From Halovenus salina (GTDB taxonomy: Archaea; Halobacteriota; Halobacteria; Halobacteriales; Haloarculaceae), in contig NZ_CP112972.1 of NCBI RefSeq assembly GCF_026410925.1, forward strand, positions 1,550,001 to 1,614,000: a stretch of DNA of 64,000 nt. Reading direction: 5' to 3'. Positions within the stretch are counted from its first letter, which is position 1; every line of letters begins with the position of its first letter. The position numbers and the translations under genes are program-made. The notes beneath the pieces are model-generated. The model was not told the origin of the DNA, searched no databases, and worked only from the letters and a program-made list of their open reading frames with translations. Of the stretch, positions 1,780 to 7,176 are shown piece after piece.

Positions 1780-3218
1780 ATGAATCAATCCAATACGCCT
1801 CAAGCGGGGTTTATTGACCCGGACGGGGGCAACGCTGCGGCTGTTCGGGACCTTGCTGAGGGAGTCCTCGATCAACTCATAGGGCAACTCGAGTGGCAAA
1901 CGACCGGTCACCGTTACCGGAGAATTCATCGGCTCCATCGGGTGCGATTCCAGACTCTTCGCGGTCCCAGAGTGATCTACTGGACGATATAGAGACAATA
2001 GTTCGGGGATCGATGAATCCTGCCTATCCCGGGTACATCGGTCATATGGATACGATACCGACGACGGTCTCCGTGTTGGGCGACCTCGTGGCATCGGCAG
2101 TCAACAACAATATGCTGAGCGTGGAAATGTCTCCAGTGTTTTCTGAACTTGAGGTTCGATTGACCGAGAAAATTGCTGACGAATTCGGCCTCGGGCCTGA
2201 CGCTGGCGGCGTACTTTGTAGCGGTGGCAGTTTGGCAAATCTCCACGCACTCACGGTCGCCCGTAACCAAGCGTTCAACGTTCACAAAGAAGGCCTCGTT
2301 GGTGTAGGTCGCAAACCAGTGTTGTTCGCATCGGAGGTGGCACACACGTCGCTGCAGAAGGCCGCTATGTTGGTCGGACTCGGTACTGACGCTGTCATCC
2401 CTATCGAGACGGACGACAACTCTCGAATGGACCCCAATGCGCTGGAGCAGGCAATCGAGAAGGCTGAACGAGAAGATCGAGCACCCTTTTGTGTCATTGC
2501 GACAGCCGGGACGACGACGACGGGGAATATCGATCCACTCCCAGCTATCCGAGATGTCGCCGACGAACACGACCTGTGGTTCCACGTTGACGCGGCCTAT
2601 GGCGGGGCGCTCGTGTTCTCGGAGGCCGAATGCGGGCGGCTCGATGGAATCGAGTCTGCCGATTCAGTGACGTTCAACCCTCAGAAATGGTGTTATGTCG
2701 CCAAGACCTGTGCAATGGCTCTGTTCGCCGACGAAGACATCTTACAGGAAGATTTCCGGATTGGGGCTCCATATATGCGCGGCAACGATGCGATTCCGAA
2801 TCTCGGCGAGCTGAGTGTTCAGGGTACCAGACGAGCAGATATCCTGAAGCTCTGGCTTACCTTTCAACATCTCGGTCGCGACGGACTCGAACAACTAATC
2901 GACGAAAGCTACCGATTGACCGCTCTGATTCGTGACCGCGTTGTCAAACACGACGCGCTGGAACTCGCCAGCAGGCCGGAAATGAATATCATCTGTTTCC
3001 GGGCGGTACCAGAGTGGTGTCCCTCAGAGAAACAGGACGACCTGAATAACCGACTCCAACAGACGTTGCTCTCTGAACACGACATCTTCGTCTCGTTACC
3101 CACCTATCGTGACAATAGATGGCTGCGAGTTGTCCTCCTCAACCCATTCACCGGAGAGGAGACCCTTCAGCGGCTGTTCGGTGGGATTGACGGTTTCTTG
3201 AATGCAGAACAGGGCTGA
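1780..3218 (+). pseudogene. PLP-dependent decarboxylase, frameshifted near the N-terminus
   Basis: Group II pyridoxal-phosphate decarboxylase (aspartate/glutamate/aromatic amino-acid or 2,4-diaminobutyrate decarboxylase type). The N-terminus starts at ATG 1780 (MNQSNTPQAGFIDPDGG) and reads to QLEW at 1896, where the frame breaks. The rest continues in the next frame from about 1893 (ANDRSPLPEN) to 3218. One lost G, in a run that would have read tgggca, restores QLEWANDRSPLPE and so one continuous protein of about 479 residues. The cofactor region HVDAAYGG and the Schiff-base lysine in NPQKW (codon at 2685) are intact, as is the rest of the catalytic domain. It could be a recent pseudogene or a sequencing indel. 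Internal initiation at GTG 1893 would give a shortened protein. The substrate is not determinable. Confidence 0.75.
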
Positions 3219-3275
3219 CTGGAAGTACGCTATTGTACTCTCGGTACTCCCTCTGATTCGATAACCCAAACTCAA

Positions 3276-3307
3276 GGTGGTTATTTACGGCAAACCTGGT
3301 CACATTC
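3276..3307 (+). promoter_or_regulatory. Bipartite 32-bp motif upstream of doxX
   Basis: GGTGGTTA, ten bases, then ACCTGGTCACATTC. The same two blocks with the same ten-base spacing recur at 6861-6830 in front of the VOC/GST pair. Here it directly precedes the AT-rich TATA region at 3309-3328, as expected for an archaeal upstream activator or BRE-proximal operator. Confidence 0.55.
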
Positions 3308-3308
3308 A

Positions 3309-3328
3309 TATAAGATAAATTATATATC
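3309..3328 (+). promoter_or_regulatory. TATA-box region for the doxX transcript
   Basis: An almost pure A/T block (tataagataaattatatat) lies 29-48 bp upstream of the ATG at 3357. The spacing suits a transcript starting near that ATG. It lies immediately downstream of the 32-bp motif. Confidence 0.5.
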
Positions 3329-3356
3329 CTCATCGGACAAACAATCGGATGTCGTG

Positions 3357-3413
3357 ATGAACACAATTTCCAACCGAATCGGAACAGATAGCCCACCCGA
3401 GGTGCTGAACTGA
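3357..3413 (+). CDS. 18-codon upstream ORF coupled to doxX
   Basis: ATG 3357 opens an 18-residue frame (MNTISNRIGTDSPPEVLN) whose TGA stop overlaps the doxX ATG in the sequence TGATG. The promoter sits about 30 bp before this small frame rather than before doxX. The transcript would therefore begin at or near it, and doxX would be reached by termination-reinitiation. It may be a leader peptide or chance; no homology is recognised. Confidence 0.3.
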   Translation: MNTISNRIGTDSPPEVLN

Positions 3414-3820
3414 TGGTGGTCGAGACCTCCCCGACTGCCGAGTTCTTCCTCGTTGGTCGAGTGTTGCTCGGTGGTGTCCTTGCATACCTGGGGATCAGTA
3501 ACATGCTCGATGCCGGGAACAAAATCGAATACGCTCGCTCAATGGGCGTCCCCATTGCTGGTATCGCCGTTCCAGTGTCGTTCGTGATGCTGATTCTCGG
3601 CGGACTCGGGATCCTCCTCGGCATCTACCCGATGGTCGCGAGCATCGGAGTCATCGCATTCTTTGTCGGAGTCACGCCCGCGATGCACGCCTTCTGGCGT
3701 ATCGACGACCCAGACGAGCGAAGCCAGGAGAAGACGCAATTCCTGGTCAACCTCGCGTTGCTCGGGAGCGCTGTTATCGTGCTCGCACTCGGGACCGCAC
3801 CGTGGCCATACACCCTGTAA
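3413..3820 (+). CDS. DoxX family membrane protein
   Basis: A 135-residue integral membrane protein with about four hydrophobic helices, the DoxX fold: residues around 11-28, 48-68, 70-90 and 112-130. DoxX proteins are linked to quinone and thiol redox chemistry. In Bacillus subtilis the DoxX protein CatD is paired with a VOC dioxygenase under HxlR-type regulators. Here it is followed by an AhpD-like protein, then a convergent HxlR regulator, and a VOC protein lies 3 kb away behind the same promoter motif. A role in quinone or electrophile resistance is therefore a reasonable inference. The start follows directly from the overlapping upstream frame. Confidence 0.85.
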   Translation: MVVETSPTAEFFLVGRVLLGGVLAYLGISNMLDAGNKIEYARSMGVPIAGIAVPVSFVMLILGGLGILLGIYPMVASIGVIAFFVGVTPAMHAFWRIDDPDERSQEKTQFLVNLALLGSAVIVLALGTAPWPYTL

Positions 3821-3855
3821 CCGCAATCAGTACTACACCACTCCACTCGATTCAT

Positions 3856-4203
3856 ATGACTACAGACGACTCAACAGAGCCATTCGCTGGATTGTTCGCA
3901 GACACCGACGCTGAACCGGAGTTCCTGACGAAACTTCGTGCGCACGACCCGGACTTCGCAGACTACGTGGCTGCAATCGCACGGAACGCCGGGAGTGACA
4001 AGACGCTCTCCGCACAGACGAAGACGCTCATCACACTGGCACTCGATGCAGCCGACGGAAACACGACCGGCGTGAAAGACCTCGCTGCAGTCGCCCGGTC
4101 ACAGGGCGTTTCCGAGCAGGAACTCGTCGAGACGGTGAAAGTCATCGCCAATCAAAGTGGCCTCGGAAAACTCGCAGTTGCCGCCCACGCCCTTGAGGAG
4201 TAG
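3856..4203 (+). CDS. Carboxymuconolactone decarboxylase/AhpD-like protein
   Basis: A 115-residue soluble all-helical protein of the CMD/AhpD family; the core helix pair is LSAQTKTLITLALDAADGN and VARSQGVSEQELVETVKVIA. The usual redox CxxC and histidine of AhpD are absent: the corresponding stretch reads AADGNTTGVKDLAAVAR, with no cysteine anywhere. A thiol peroxidase-coupling role is therefore unlikely, and it may act as a lactone-type decarboxylase or a small-molecule binder. ATG 3856 is preferred to the in-frame ATG at 3802, which would overlap doxX. It lies 35 bp downstream of doxX and is probably co-transcribed. Confidence 0.85.
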   Translation: MTTDDSTEPFAGLFADTDAEPEFLTKLRAHDPDFADYVAAIARNAGSDKTLSAQTKTLITLALDAADGNTTGVKDLAAVARSQGVSEQELVETVKVIANQSGLGKLAVAAHALEE

Positions 4204-4204
4204 A

Positions 4205-4597
4205 CTAAACGTCAGGCGTCTCAGTGGATTGGTTGGCCGTTTCGTCAACCCACTCTGCATTCCACTCGTCGATTGCGTCGAATACTGGCTCGAGTGCCGC
4301 TCCCTTCTCGGTCAGACTGTAGTGCGTCTCGACGGGTGGGCCTTCCTCGACATTGCGGTCGACAATCCCATCCTCTTCGAGTGATTCGAGGACGCGCGAG
4401 AGCGTGTACGAACTCGCGCCAGATGCTCGCTTCAGTTCGTTGAATCGGTGGTCGCCATCGAACAGGTTGTAGAGAATCCGAAGTCGCCACTTGGTACCGA
4501 ACTGATCGAGTGACTGGACGCCTGCACACGCGTCCGGCGTGAGTTCTCGGACCTCGCGGAGATTCTCGTCGATCTCCTCGTCGGGCGCTGGAACCAT
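4205..4597 (-). CDS. HxlR family transcriptional regulator
   Basis: A 130-residue winged-helix regulator with the full HxlR/DUF24 signature: FGTKWRLRILYNLFDGDHRFNELKRASG, then SSYTLSRVLESLEEDGIVDR and the wing VETHYSLTEKG. Cys24 sits just before the DNA-binding domain, at the place used by redox/quinone-sensing members (YodB, CatR, HypR) of Bacillus. It converges on the AhpD-like gene, with stop codons one base apart. It is the best candidate for the regulator that reads the 32-bp motif shared by the doxX and VOC promoters. That link is inference. Confidence 0.92.
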   Translation of the reverse strand: MVPAPDEEIDENLREVRELTPDACAGVQSLDQFGTKWRLRILYNLFDGDHRFNELKRASGASSYTLSRVLESLEEDGIVDRNVEEGPPVETHYSLTEKGAALEPVFDAIDEWNAEWVDETANQSTETPDV

Positions 4598-4773
4598 ATC
4601 AGCGCATACGCAGTCCCAGGTGTTAGTGTTTGTCTTGCGAACTCTGCCAAAAATTGTCGATACTGCTGAGCAGTAGCTGTCGAGTCAAAACGGAGAACAG
4701 CTATCTGATGGGCCTGAAGAGGAGTAATTCGCCAACGGAAAAACTCTATTACAGTTCCTTCGTTGGCCTGTTC

Positions 4774-5209
4774 ATGAGTGACGTTACAATCCGCGAGTTG
4801 GAGTCACAGGCTGAGTGGATAGACGCATTTCCGTTGATGAAACAACTGCGGACGCACCTGGACGAAAACCAGTACCTGGACTACCTCGAACAGATGAGTG
4901 CTGACGGATATCGACTGTTCGGGCTGTTCTCGGGAGACGAACTTGCCGCTCTCGCGGGTGTCGATATTTTGACCAACATGTACTACGGGCGGCACCTTTG
5001 GGTGTTCGAGGTTGGTGACCGACGCTGACCACCGCTCGAAAGGCTTTGGGAAACAACTGTTCCAGTATCTTGTGGACTGGGCTGAAGACAAAGGGTGTGA
5101 GAAGGTCGCTCTTTCGTCGGGCGTACAGAGAGACCAGGCACACCGATTTTACGAAGACCACGTCGAAATGGACCGAGCCAGTTACGTTTATACTCTAGAT
5201 TTGAGCTGA
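4774..5209 (+). pseudogene. GNAT N-acetyltransferase, frameshifted mid-gene
   Basis: The N-terminal part (MSDVTIRELESQAEWIDAF onwards, ATG 4774) ends in WVFE at 5010. The C-terminal part (LVTDADHRSKGFGKQLFQYL) lies in the next frame from 5012 to TGA 5209. Removing one G at 5010-5011 joins them as WVFELVTDADHRSKGFG, the standard GNAT strand 4 and acetyl-CoA loop (consensus Q/RxxGxG/A, here RSKGFG). The restored protein would be about 144 residues, a normal length. Either a pseudogene or a one-base sequencing error. It is the second such break within 3.2 kb. Confidence 0.75.
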
Positions 5210-5398
5210 GTGTGGCAGAGAATGGAGTCAGAAGCCAAACTCACCGCAGACGATGGCGACGAAGCCGACGAAGTCGGTAGGTCGGTGCTGCACGGATGAT
5301 GGGACTACCGTGCTCGTCGGGGCCAATGGTCGCGACTCCAGCGGGAAAATGCCGGCCGTGCGTACATCTTTGTCCTACGTGACCGTTGACGGGCACCG
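5210..5398. other. Gap without a convincing gene
   Basis: These 189 bp lie between convergent genes. Short frames exist on both strands, but none has recognisable protein character. It could be debris of a decayed gene, in keeping with the frameshifted neighbours. Confidence 0.4.
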
Positions 5399-6337
5399 TC
5401 ACTCCCGCTCGTGAGTGGCTGTGAAATCAATATCAGGGCCGACTGGAACGAACCCGGTCGGGTTGATATCCGTGTGGCTCCGGTAGTAGTGCTTCTTGAT
5501 GTGGTCGACATTGACCGTCTCTGCGACCCCGTCATGTTGGTAGATGTCGCGCGTGTATCCCCACAGGTTCGGATAGTCGACGAGTCGCCGGACGTTACAC
5601 TTGAAATGCGTATAGTAGACTGGATCGAACCGGACGAGCGCAGGGAAGAGTCGGAGATCGGCGATGGTGAGCGAATCACCGACGAGGAATCGCTGGTCGC
5701 CGAGTACCGCCTCCCAGTGGTCGAGCGCCTCGAACATGGTCTCGACTGCCCGCTCGTAGGTGTCCTGAGAGTCTGCGAACCCGGCGGTGTACGCCCCCTG
5801 GAGAATTGGTTCGTACAGCTCGTCGACAACCGCATCGATGCGATCACGCTTCCCGGCCGGGTACAGATCGTATTCGTCACTGTGGTCGGCGAAGGCCGTC
5901 GCAAGCATCTCCATGATCTCGATGGATTCGTTGTTGACGACCGTCTCTTCGACCCGGTCCCAGAGGACTGGCGTAGTGACGCTGCCAGTATACGTCGGAT
6001 CAGCTGCAGTGTACACCTCGTGGAGGAACTCCGAGTCGTGGAGAGAATCCGACGTACACCCCGGTTTGTCGGGGCTGAATTGCCAGCCACCAGTCCCGCG
6101 ATACGGGTCGACGATATTCATTGAGATGACATCCTCAAGGCCAAGGAGTTTCCGCACCAGGACAGCGCCGTGAGCCCATGGACAGGCGCGGGCAATGTAG
6201 AGGTGATATCGCCCGGATTCTGGTGGGAATCGGGAGCCGGCGGAGATGCGTTCTCGGAACGAGTCTTGGCTTCGGTTCTGATCGCTTTCGGTCAATTCGT
6301 CAGTCGTCTTCCAGTGGCCGTCGATGAGGTATCCCAT
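5399..6337 (-). CDS. Glutathionyl-hydroquinone reductase-like GST (YqjG/ECM4 family)
   Basis: A 312-residue cytoplasmic protein with the omega/Xi-class glutathione-transferase layout. The N-terminal thioredoxin-like domain carries the active-site CPWAH (Cys52) followed by GLEDVISMNIVDP. The C-terminal helical domain contains FLVGDSLTIADLRLFPALVRFD and CNVRRLVDYPNLW. Bacterial and yeast relatives reduce glutathionyl-hydroquinones through the active cysteine. Haloarchaea use gamma-glutamylcysteine rather than glutathione, so the in vivo thiol is probably that one (inference). It follows the VOC gene by 39 bp on the same strand, suggesting one transcript. Its chemistry fits the DoxX/HxlR neighbours. 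Confidence 0.9.
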   Translation of the reverse strand: MGYLIDGHWKTTDELTESDQNRSQDSFRERISAGSRFPPESGRYHLYIARACPWAHGAVLVRKLLGLEDVISMNIVDPYRGTGGWQFSPDKPGCTSDSLHDSEFLHEVYTAADPTYTGSVTTPVLWDRVEETVVNNESIEIMEMLATAFADHSDEYDLYPAGKRDRIDAVVDELYEPILQGAYTAGFADSQDTYERAVETMFEALDHWEAVLGDQRFLVGDSLTIADLRLFPALVRFDPVYYTHFKCNVRRLVDYPNLWGYTRDIYQHDGVAETVNVDHIKKHYYRSHTDINPTGFVPVGPDIDFTATHERE

Positions 6338-6376
6338 GTGTGATAATCTGGTTTTGCAGTTGTGTCTGAGATTCGT

Positions 6377-6781
6377 CTATGCCGTCTCCGAGACGGGTTC
6401 TTTGAGCTCGATGAGGTAGCCGAAGGGATCTCGGACGTAGATTGCGGGGGCTTTACCTGTCGCCCCGTCAGGAGTCCCTTCTCGTTCGATGATGACTCCT
6501 GCATCCTCGAGTTCCTGCTTGACATCGTCGATATCCTCGTTCAGAATGATTGCGAGGTGGTCGAAGTTCTCCCGTTTGGGATGGACGAACTCGTCGGTCG
6601 GTCTAACGTGGATGATCGTATCTGCTGTGAGCCGGAAGTGGAAAATCGGTGTATCGCCCTGTTCGTACTCTTCGAATCCCTCGAGTGGGAATCCGAGGAG
6701 GCCCTGGTAGAATTCGATTGCATGCTCGATCTCGTCATCTGGAATTCGGAGGTGAATGTGATCAATTCGTTGTGCGTCCAT
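6377..6781 (-). CDS. VOC (glyoxalase/dioxygenase fold) protein
   Basis: A 134-residue protein with the two-module VOC fold: IDHIHLRIPDDEIEHAIEFY at the start, and FDHLAIILN and DPFGYLIELKEP in the second half. Metal-ligand candidates are the histidine of the IDHIHL strand, the histidine of DHLAI and the glutamate of LIELK. Start ATG 6781 (MDAQRIDHIH) is chosen over an upstream in-frame codon at 6826 because family members begin here and the upstream residues are not VOC-like. The exact reaction is unknown. Its place ahead of the GST-like gene and behind the shared 32-bp motif suggests handling of aromatic or electrophilic compounds. Confidence 0.88.
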   Translation of the reverse strand: MDAQRIDHIHLRIPDDEIEHAIEFYQGLLGFPLEGFEEYEQGDTPIFHFRLTADTIIHVRPTDEFVHPKRENFDHLAIILNEDIDDVKQELEDAGVIIEREGTPDGATGKAPAIYVRDPFGYLIELKEPVSETA

Positions 6782-6829
6782 CGTTCGTAGTGAGATAGAA
6801 CCGTCTATCGCATATAGCTCAGGCAATCC

Positions 6830-6861
6830 GAATCTGATCAGGTCACACTAGACTAACCACC
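6830..6861 (-). promoter_or_regulatory. Bipartite 32-bp motif upstream of VOC-GST
   Basis: Read on the minus strand: GGTGGTTA, ten bases, ACCTGATCAGATTC. It matches the motif at 3276-3307 in both blocks and in spacing. A TATA-like ctatatgc follows about 15 bp downstream, and the VOC start codon lies 49 bp from the motif. Confidence 0.55.
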
Positions 6862-7176
6862 GAAAGAACGATGAGAAAAATGGTTTTCCAATGGAAAATA
6901 GCGAATATTCTCCCGATAGCTTTGACTTGATCACGCCGGATACTTTTTCCGTACCGGTCCGTTCTTCATCCTAAGATTGACACCCTTGAGAGAACTCTGA
7001 GGACGATACTTGAACTTCCATTACTACCGTAAAATTTACTTGCTGAATAGATTCTCTGCATGTTTCACCGGTTTTCTGATGAATTTCAGATATCTTCTAC
7101 CCGCCTCGGTACGTAAACCACCTGTACTGACCGATTCTGCGCGACCAGCACTGGTATCCATAACCGCGTTGACTAG
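6862..7176. other. AT-richer intergenic stretch, no gene seen
   Basis: Beyond the VOC promoter this stretch is visibly richer in A/T than the surrounding genes. A plus-strand open frame from 7010 encodes a Phe/Tyr/Leu/Arg-rich peptide unlike any haloarchaeal protein and was not accepted. No transposase remnant or terminal repeat was recognised. It marks the right edge of the accessory segment. Confidence 0.5.

Follow-up and report, generated by a model that had tools for sequence, protein, structure and literature searches.

A question raised by one locus of the haloarchaeon Halovenus salina is whether a few detoxification genes are placed under an HxlR-type regulator by an operator of their own. 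The locus lies in a stretch of 64,000 nucleotides (contig NZ_CP112972.1, positions 1,550,001 to 1,614,000; hereafter the 64-kb window), in which the gene for an HxlR-family protein is located between two units, one consisting of doxX and a carboxymuconolactone decarboxylase (CMD) gene and the other of a VOC-family gene and a glutathione transferase (GST) gene. Each unit is preceded by a copy of a 32-bp bipartite element, GGTGGTTA-N10-ACCTGRTCASATTC, which we lean towards regarding as an HxlR binding site, probably an upstream activating site for both units. As far as sequence can show, this is a detoxification regulon linked to HxlR and equipped with an archaeal element of its own. Among the titles and abstracts listed by searches of the open-licence literature, none dealt with a haloarchaeal HxlR operator. 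This candidate operator, which is common to two regulator clades and several haloarchaeal genera and is partly plasmid-borne, may offer a compact system in which to study the action of a Cys-sensing regulator of bacterial type on a TATA/TFB promoter, and to ask which residue of the recognition helix sets HxlR specificity.

Occurrence and form of the element

Both copies match the two-block pattern without any mismatch, on the opposite strands and with the 10-base spacing given in an initial annotation of the window (Table 1), and the HxlR gene that was said to lie between them is indeed present, its product scoring 82.1 bits against the PF01638 winged-helix model (cut-off 20.8), which places it in the family. 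The blocks of the two copies are identical at 20 of 22 positions, as had been counted, and their spacers agree at 2 of 10 positions, not at about three. Each copy is found 5' of a TATA-like block, again as annotated, and the distance is the same in both promoters, with N-TA-N-A at offset 44-48 counted from the element's first base.

Chance origin of this pair was ruled out by 100 dinucleotide shuffles, in which 0.00 matches at up to 3 mismatches were expected compared to the 2 present in the window, and by uniqueness in the 3.77-Mb genome, where the two copies were the sole matches at the same tolerance and the pattern read backwards gave 0. Scattering of the motif through the genome, which the initial annotation had named as evidence against its proposal, was likewise ruled out: besides these two sites, a looser pattern with 1 mismatch gave a single extra match (G000:C4:47488, in the same genome), equal to the 1 match of its backwards control.

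Conservation in orthologous clusters

A close HxlR gene adjoining a close GST gene was detected in 7 of 146 genomes of the family (H. salina included), the proteins of the six other genomes being 78-89% (HxlR) and 73-87% (GST) identical to those of the window. With a VOC profile, 7 loci were located in genome contigs and more in plasmid records, and 16 of 392 genomes of the order matched it (10 strongly, 6 weakly); among the replicons bearing the cluster are plasmids of Halostella pelagica, Salinibaculum litoreum, Haloferax larsenii, and Haloarcula sp. JP-L23. Fourteen loci were analyzed (the window, L075-L080, L096, L097, L099, L101, and L118-L120), whose VOC promoters comprise 12 distinct 60-mers, as L097 repeats L080 and L118 repeats L099. 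VOC, GST, and HxlR genes are present in all 14 loci, doxX in three, and a full-length CMD gene in five (partial in L078), and 6 of the 13 other clusters have a pyridoxal phosphate (PLP)-dependent decarboxylase gene between GST and HxlR.

The element blocks have been kept in every VOC promoter (14/14, 12 distinct) and in all three doxX promoters (window, L075, and L077), so that the element is not absent from orthologous promoters, the other outcome that had been named as adverse. Variation within the blocks is limited to GGTAGTT in L076, L119, and the doxX promoter of L075, GCA replacing TCA in L120, and a weaker first block in the doxX promoter of L077. The earlier description of the spacer as not conserved holds between the two window sites and fails for its last three bases, which are GTG in each of the 14 VOC promoters; the flanks 5' of the element are unconserved across VOC and doxX promoters. 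N-TA-N-A occurs at offset 44-48 in all 17 promoters, and TTGCCTGA (at least 7 of 8 bases) occupies offset 35-42 in 14/14 VOC promoters and 0/3 doxX promoters. If the TATA box is assumed to be centred near -27, the element reaches from about -73 to -42 and lies 5' of where the B recognition element (BRE) is expected. With sites at detoxification promoters and conservation beside HxlR orthologs, these data support the small dedicated regulon that the initial annotation had predicted. Among the weaker VOC relatives (L121-L126, 47-54% identical), no HxlR, GST, or DoxX match was found within 12 kb, and no element was recognized by eye in the five upstream stretches inspected (all but that of L122).

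A second HxlR clade carrying the same element

The same element was also found in a second HxlR clade, whose members are 44-56% identical to the window protein. A search of 382 genomes of the order with the G118 HxlR gave 55 places in 51 genomes, 30 of which were examined (L127-L156). In 27 of these 30 loci (25 distinct 60-mers) the pattern lies over the start of the HxlR gene itself, facing a divergent gene; it missed L152, L153, which has a variant ending TGGTAACA, and L156, whose protein has Arg at position 64. In 20 of the 27 promoters N-TA-N-A stands at the offset seen in the window promoters, four (L146, L148, L150, and L154) have YTATTAA there, and three (L141, L145, and L147) have neither sequence; TTGCCTGA, with 7 or 8 of its 8 bases, is present in 22.

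Matrices were cross-tested between the two clades. A two-block matrix trained on the second clade alone ranked 3276(+) first (27.7 bits) among 127,944 window positions and 6861(-) second (19.1 bits), the third-best position having 11.3; when the spacer columns were included, the window sites came second and third after 58130(+), all scores being negative. Conversely, the best-scoring position under the window-clade matrix was the expected site for 26 of the 30 loci of the second clade, the exceptions being L147, L152, L153 (the same place, outside the pattern set), and L156. In addition, the left block overlaps codons 3-5 of the second-clade HxlR genes, and codon choice there appears to be constrained: in the 25 genes whose start could be read (5 of 30 were skipped), codon 4 is CAA in 25/25 compared to 13/25 Gln codons elsewhere in the genes (Fisher 4e-5), codon 5 is CCA in 23/25 compared to 6/51 Pro codons elsewhere (Fisher 7e-12), and codon 3, where it encodes Thr, is ACC in 23/23 compared to 43/152 elsewhere (Fisher 1e-11), although these p values overstate the case because the genes are related.

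The divergent genes differ among loci. In L134 an SDR gene (PF00106) precedes a frame that was judged DoxX-like by eye, and in L146/L086 a doxX gene (PF07681) adjoins a VOC-type gene of 282 residues, a similar VOC-type gene being present in L128. The VOC-type proteins of this clade score far below the cut-off against the HpaD and catechol 2,3-dioxygenase models, and that of L086 had no match in PDB at 1e-10. In L143 (1229-1438, minus strand), a single short frame joins an SDR start to a DoxX-like end in phase (by eye), which looks like an SDR-DoxX pair that has lost its middle. Many loci of L127-L155 also contain a GTTTGG-N2-4-CAAAC type sequence between the TATA box and the start of the divergent gene, which was not seen in the two promoters of the window.

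Association with Tyr64

A survey of residue 64, in the recognition helix, covered 74 HxlR rows (several repeating one locus), with the strict pattern applied to 300 bases upstream of and 120 bases inside each start. Tyr64 (in SSYTLSR) is found in 7 window-clade and 38 second-clade rows, and Arg64 in 29 rows; this residue aligns with Arg of HypR and with Lys of YodB and HxlR. The element was detected near the HxlR start in 31 of the 38 second-clade Tyr64 rows and in none of the 29 Arg64 rows.

A similar picture was obtained across the 146 genomes of the family. The exact pattern GGTDGTTRN10ACYTRNTCA gave 15 sites in 13 genomes (backwards control, 3), 14 of which are at loci of the two Tyr64 clades, the remaining one (G003) lying in long open frames. 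Tyr64-type HxlR genes are found in seven genomes for each clade, and the element is present in 12 of these 14 compared to 1 of the 132 others (Fisher 9e-15). In a scan of related haloarchaea, as the initial annotation had proposed, the window-derived pattern at 3 mismatches gave 14 places (backwards control, 1), of which two are the window's own and six are at HxlR loci of the two clades (6/12 foreign places), while the six elsewhere (G003, G007, G028, G106, G131, and G142) look chance-like and are in genomes without this HxlR. Four of the latter (G003, G007, G028, and G142) lie within reading frames that stay open beyond 350 codons, and the frames are 112 codons in G106 and at most 49 in G131.

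A GGT-N12-ACC dyad common to the window and to L081-L085 had suggested a common operator at first reading; this claim was dropped because the L081-L085 proteins have Arg64 and Gln/Asn at position 68. Between the divergent HxlR (Arg64) and doxX genes of L081-L084 lie GGTATACC-type repeats, which are perfect in L084 (GGTATACCGCGGTATACC) and are perhaps the operator of this Arg64 HxlR group; a search with the L084 HxlR matched 3 of 382 genomes.

Proposed mechanism and alternative explanations

We suggest that the HxlR encoded between the two copies binds the element, that a thiol-reactive compound modifies its single conserved Cys24 and thereby would change its activity, and that the protein bound at about -73 to -42 may help TBP/TFB at the two detoxification promoters. 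Cys24 is the only Cys of the window protein, is invariant in 7/7 window-clade proteins, and aligns with residue 14 of HypR (4a5m) and HxlR chains, and a Cys occupies the sensing position in 73 of the 74 rows (the other was unread); a conserved N-terminal Cys that senses electrophiles or oxidants is described for family members in PMC7835342. Judged from gene content, the signal is likely to be an electrophile of the quinone or catechol type. Where the element covers the start codon of the regulator gene, as in the second clade, the regulator would repress itself. A wider scheme is offered tentatively: the Tyr64 HxlR subclass might use a bipartite, non-palindromic element at a fixed TATA distance to switch on thiol-dependent electrophile detoxification, with the element in one clade placed within the start codon and first codons of the regulator (detoxification gene on, regulator off), and the divergence of this circuit from the common HxlR of haloarchaea might be due to a change at residue 64.

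Several observations weigh against this explanation. The element is not convincing as a repeat, either inverted (best dyad P 0.167, no better than permuted columns) or direct (best P 0.324, not clear), yet related regulators bind as dimers. The HxlR genes of the window clade have no copy of the element at their own promoter (0/7), the copies of this clade lying in the flanking promoters. No element was found at L152, a Tyr64 locus, within the stretch read; two Tyr64-type genomes (G014 and G016) were missed by the exact pattern and have variants of it; and that pattern was composed after the sites of both clades were known. TTGCCTGA also precedes the TATA box at L085, an Arg64 locus, and because of this the box should not be considered part of the specific signal.

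CatR-like repression is the main rival: the element would be an HxlR site from which HxlR represses both detoxification units until thiol-reactive compounds release it. In B. subtilis, catDE is repressed by CatR and YodB, relatives within the same broad family (PMC6212828), which speaks for repression and against activation, and the GTTTG-N4-CAAAC sequence of the second clade, between TATA and divergent gene, is in a place suiting it. However, this sequence is missing from the window's two promoters, and the element lies upstream of the expected BRE, not over it, at a TATA distance that is constant in three promoter classes. Activation is favored by the upstream position and the constant TATA distance of the element, and OxsR is reported to activate from sites 5' of BRE/TATA (PMC9426492); repression is considered unlikely.

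It is improbable that a different regulator serving the same genes, e.g., OxsR, binds the element. Such a possibility arises because HxlR binding is something we infer, and because OxsR, in oxidative stress, likewise works from upstream of BRE/TATA (PMC9426492); nevertheless, the OxsR motif CGGnCGnGCG differs from the element, the element and Tyr64 HxlR travel together (12/14 compared to 1/132 genomes), and the second-clade element sits on the HxlR gene itself. More doubtful still is a recently copied common core promoter without any dedicated regulator, for which we see very little probability: VOC and second-clade promoters do have TTGCCTGA and TATA in common and may be related by descent, but the doxX promoters have both blocks and the spacing without TTGCCTGA (0/3), the blocks are kept while the spacers vary, and there is constraint on the codons that the left block overlaps. 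Binding of the element by HxlR, probably with activation, is the explanation that we prefer.

Genes at the window locus

The features of the locus are listed in Table 1. The GST is related by sequence to the Xi class (glutathionyl-hydroquinone reductases): it matches 6gzf, which we take to be the Natrialba magadii enzyme, over its full length (E 1.2e-109), retains the CPWAH catalytic Cys motif, and also matches YqjG, Xi-class GSTs, and 4uss (named glutathionyl hydroquinone reductase). In the paper on the N. magadii GST (PMC6345682), the thiol site is said to suit gamma-glutamylcysteine, and no activity was detected with benzoquinone, perhaps owing to the tag. The VOC protein is short (134 residues), and the genome holds a second HxlR-like gene (G000:C1:953002).

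Table 1. Features of the locus, numbered from the first base of the window
Feature	Position	Strand	Remarks
Element copy 1	3276..3307	+	Blocks 3276-3283 and 3294-3307; spacer 3284-3293; 5' of doxX-CMD
TATA-like box TTATAT, doxX promoter	3320..3325	+	Offset 44-49 from element start; read from sequence
18-codon open frame	3357..3413	+	TGA overlaps doxX ATG (TGATG); read from sequence
doxX	3413..3820	+	PF07681, E 5.8e-8
CMD/AhpD-like gene	3856..4203	+	PF02627, E 9.9e-9; 36 bases past doxX
HxlR-family regulator	4205..4597	-	PF01638, E 2.6e-23; single Cys24; Tyr64 in recognition helix
GST, Xi-class type	5399..6337	-	PF13410, PF13409
VOC-family (glyoxalase-like) gene	6377..6781	-	PF00903, E 8.4e-13; first of VOC-GST unit
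TATA-like box CTATAT, VOC promoter	6812..6817	-	Offset 44-49 from element start; read from sequence
TTGCCTGA box	6819..6826	-	Immediately 5' of VOC TATA, expected BRE place
Element copy 2	6830..6861	-	Blocks 6861-6854 and 6843-6830; 5' of VOC-GST

Short frames of unlike sequence that end in a TGATG or ATGA overlap before doxX were also seen by eye in L077 and L081-L085, and none was seen by eye in L075; the short frame may be a translationally coupled leader. Between HxlR and GST there is a GNAT-like frame (4774-5209, named by eye) that is apparently broken, and its open first part matched 0 Pfam families. The first ~40 codons of a PLP-dependent decarboxylase (1781-3218) are in a different frame from the rest, and in the orthologs of L079, L080, L096, L097, L101, and L120 the first codons are in one continuous frame as printed. 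The G+C content of the cluster region (1801-7000) is 55.4%, compared to 62.3% for the window, a difference that fits lateral gain; in several other genomes the orthologous cluster is plasmid-borne.

Comparison with known systems

HxlR of Bacillus subtilis belongs to the same Pfam family as the window protein and has its Cys at the aligned N-terminal position. As described in PMC7835342, B. subtilis HxlR is an activator whose formaldehyde sensing needs Cys11 and Lys13, whereas this Cys-X-Lys cross-linking pair is absent from the window clade, in which the residue two past Cys24 is Gly or Ser in 7/7 proteins (Cys24-Ala-Gly in the window). The redox sensors HypR, YodB, and QsrR likewise have the N-terminal Cys at the conserved position, but their inverted-repeat type of operator is not recognizable in the element (P 0.167). 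Among haloarchaea, the Arg64-type HxlR paralogs are 48-63% identical to the window protein, with the same Cys, and the L081-L085 group has DoxX and GST genes nearby; the element is absent from the region around the HxlR start in all 29 Arg64 rows, and L081-L084 have GGTATACC-type sequences instead.

A related system is the CatR/YodB control of catDE in B. subtilis, in which CatD is DoxX-like. OxsR of Haloferax volcanii is comparable in another respect, being a thiol-based haloarchaeal stress regulator whose motif (CGGnCGnGCG) activates from sites upstream of BRE/TATA, according to PMC9426492; it is of a different protein family (TrmB) and has a different motif, which was absent by eye at the two window sites, no scan having been aimed at it. 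According to PMC6212828, CatR and YodB repress catDE, CatE being a catechol 2,3-dioxygenase. There, a few catechol/quinone detoxification genes are under HxlR/DUF24-type regulators, as is proposed for the window; the second-clade loci L086/L146 pair DoxX with a VOC gene of ~280 residues, whose product scores far below the cut-off of extradiol models. The window locus differs from catDE in its shorter VOC protein (134 residues), in the addition of GST and CMD genes, and in an element that is no simple inverted repeat and stands at a promoter of the TATA/BRE type.

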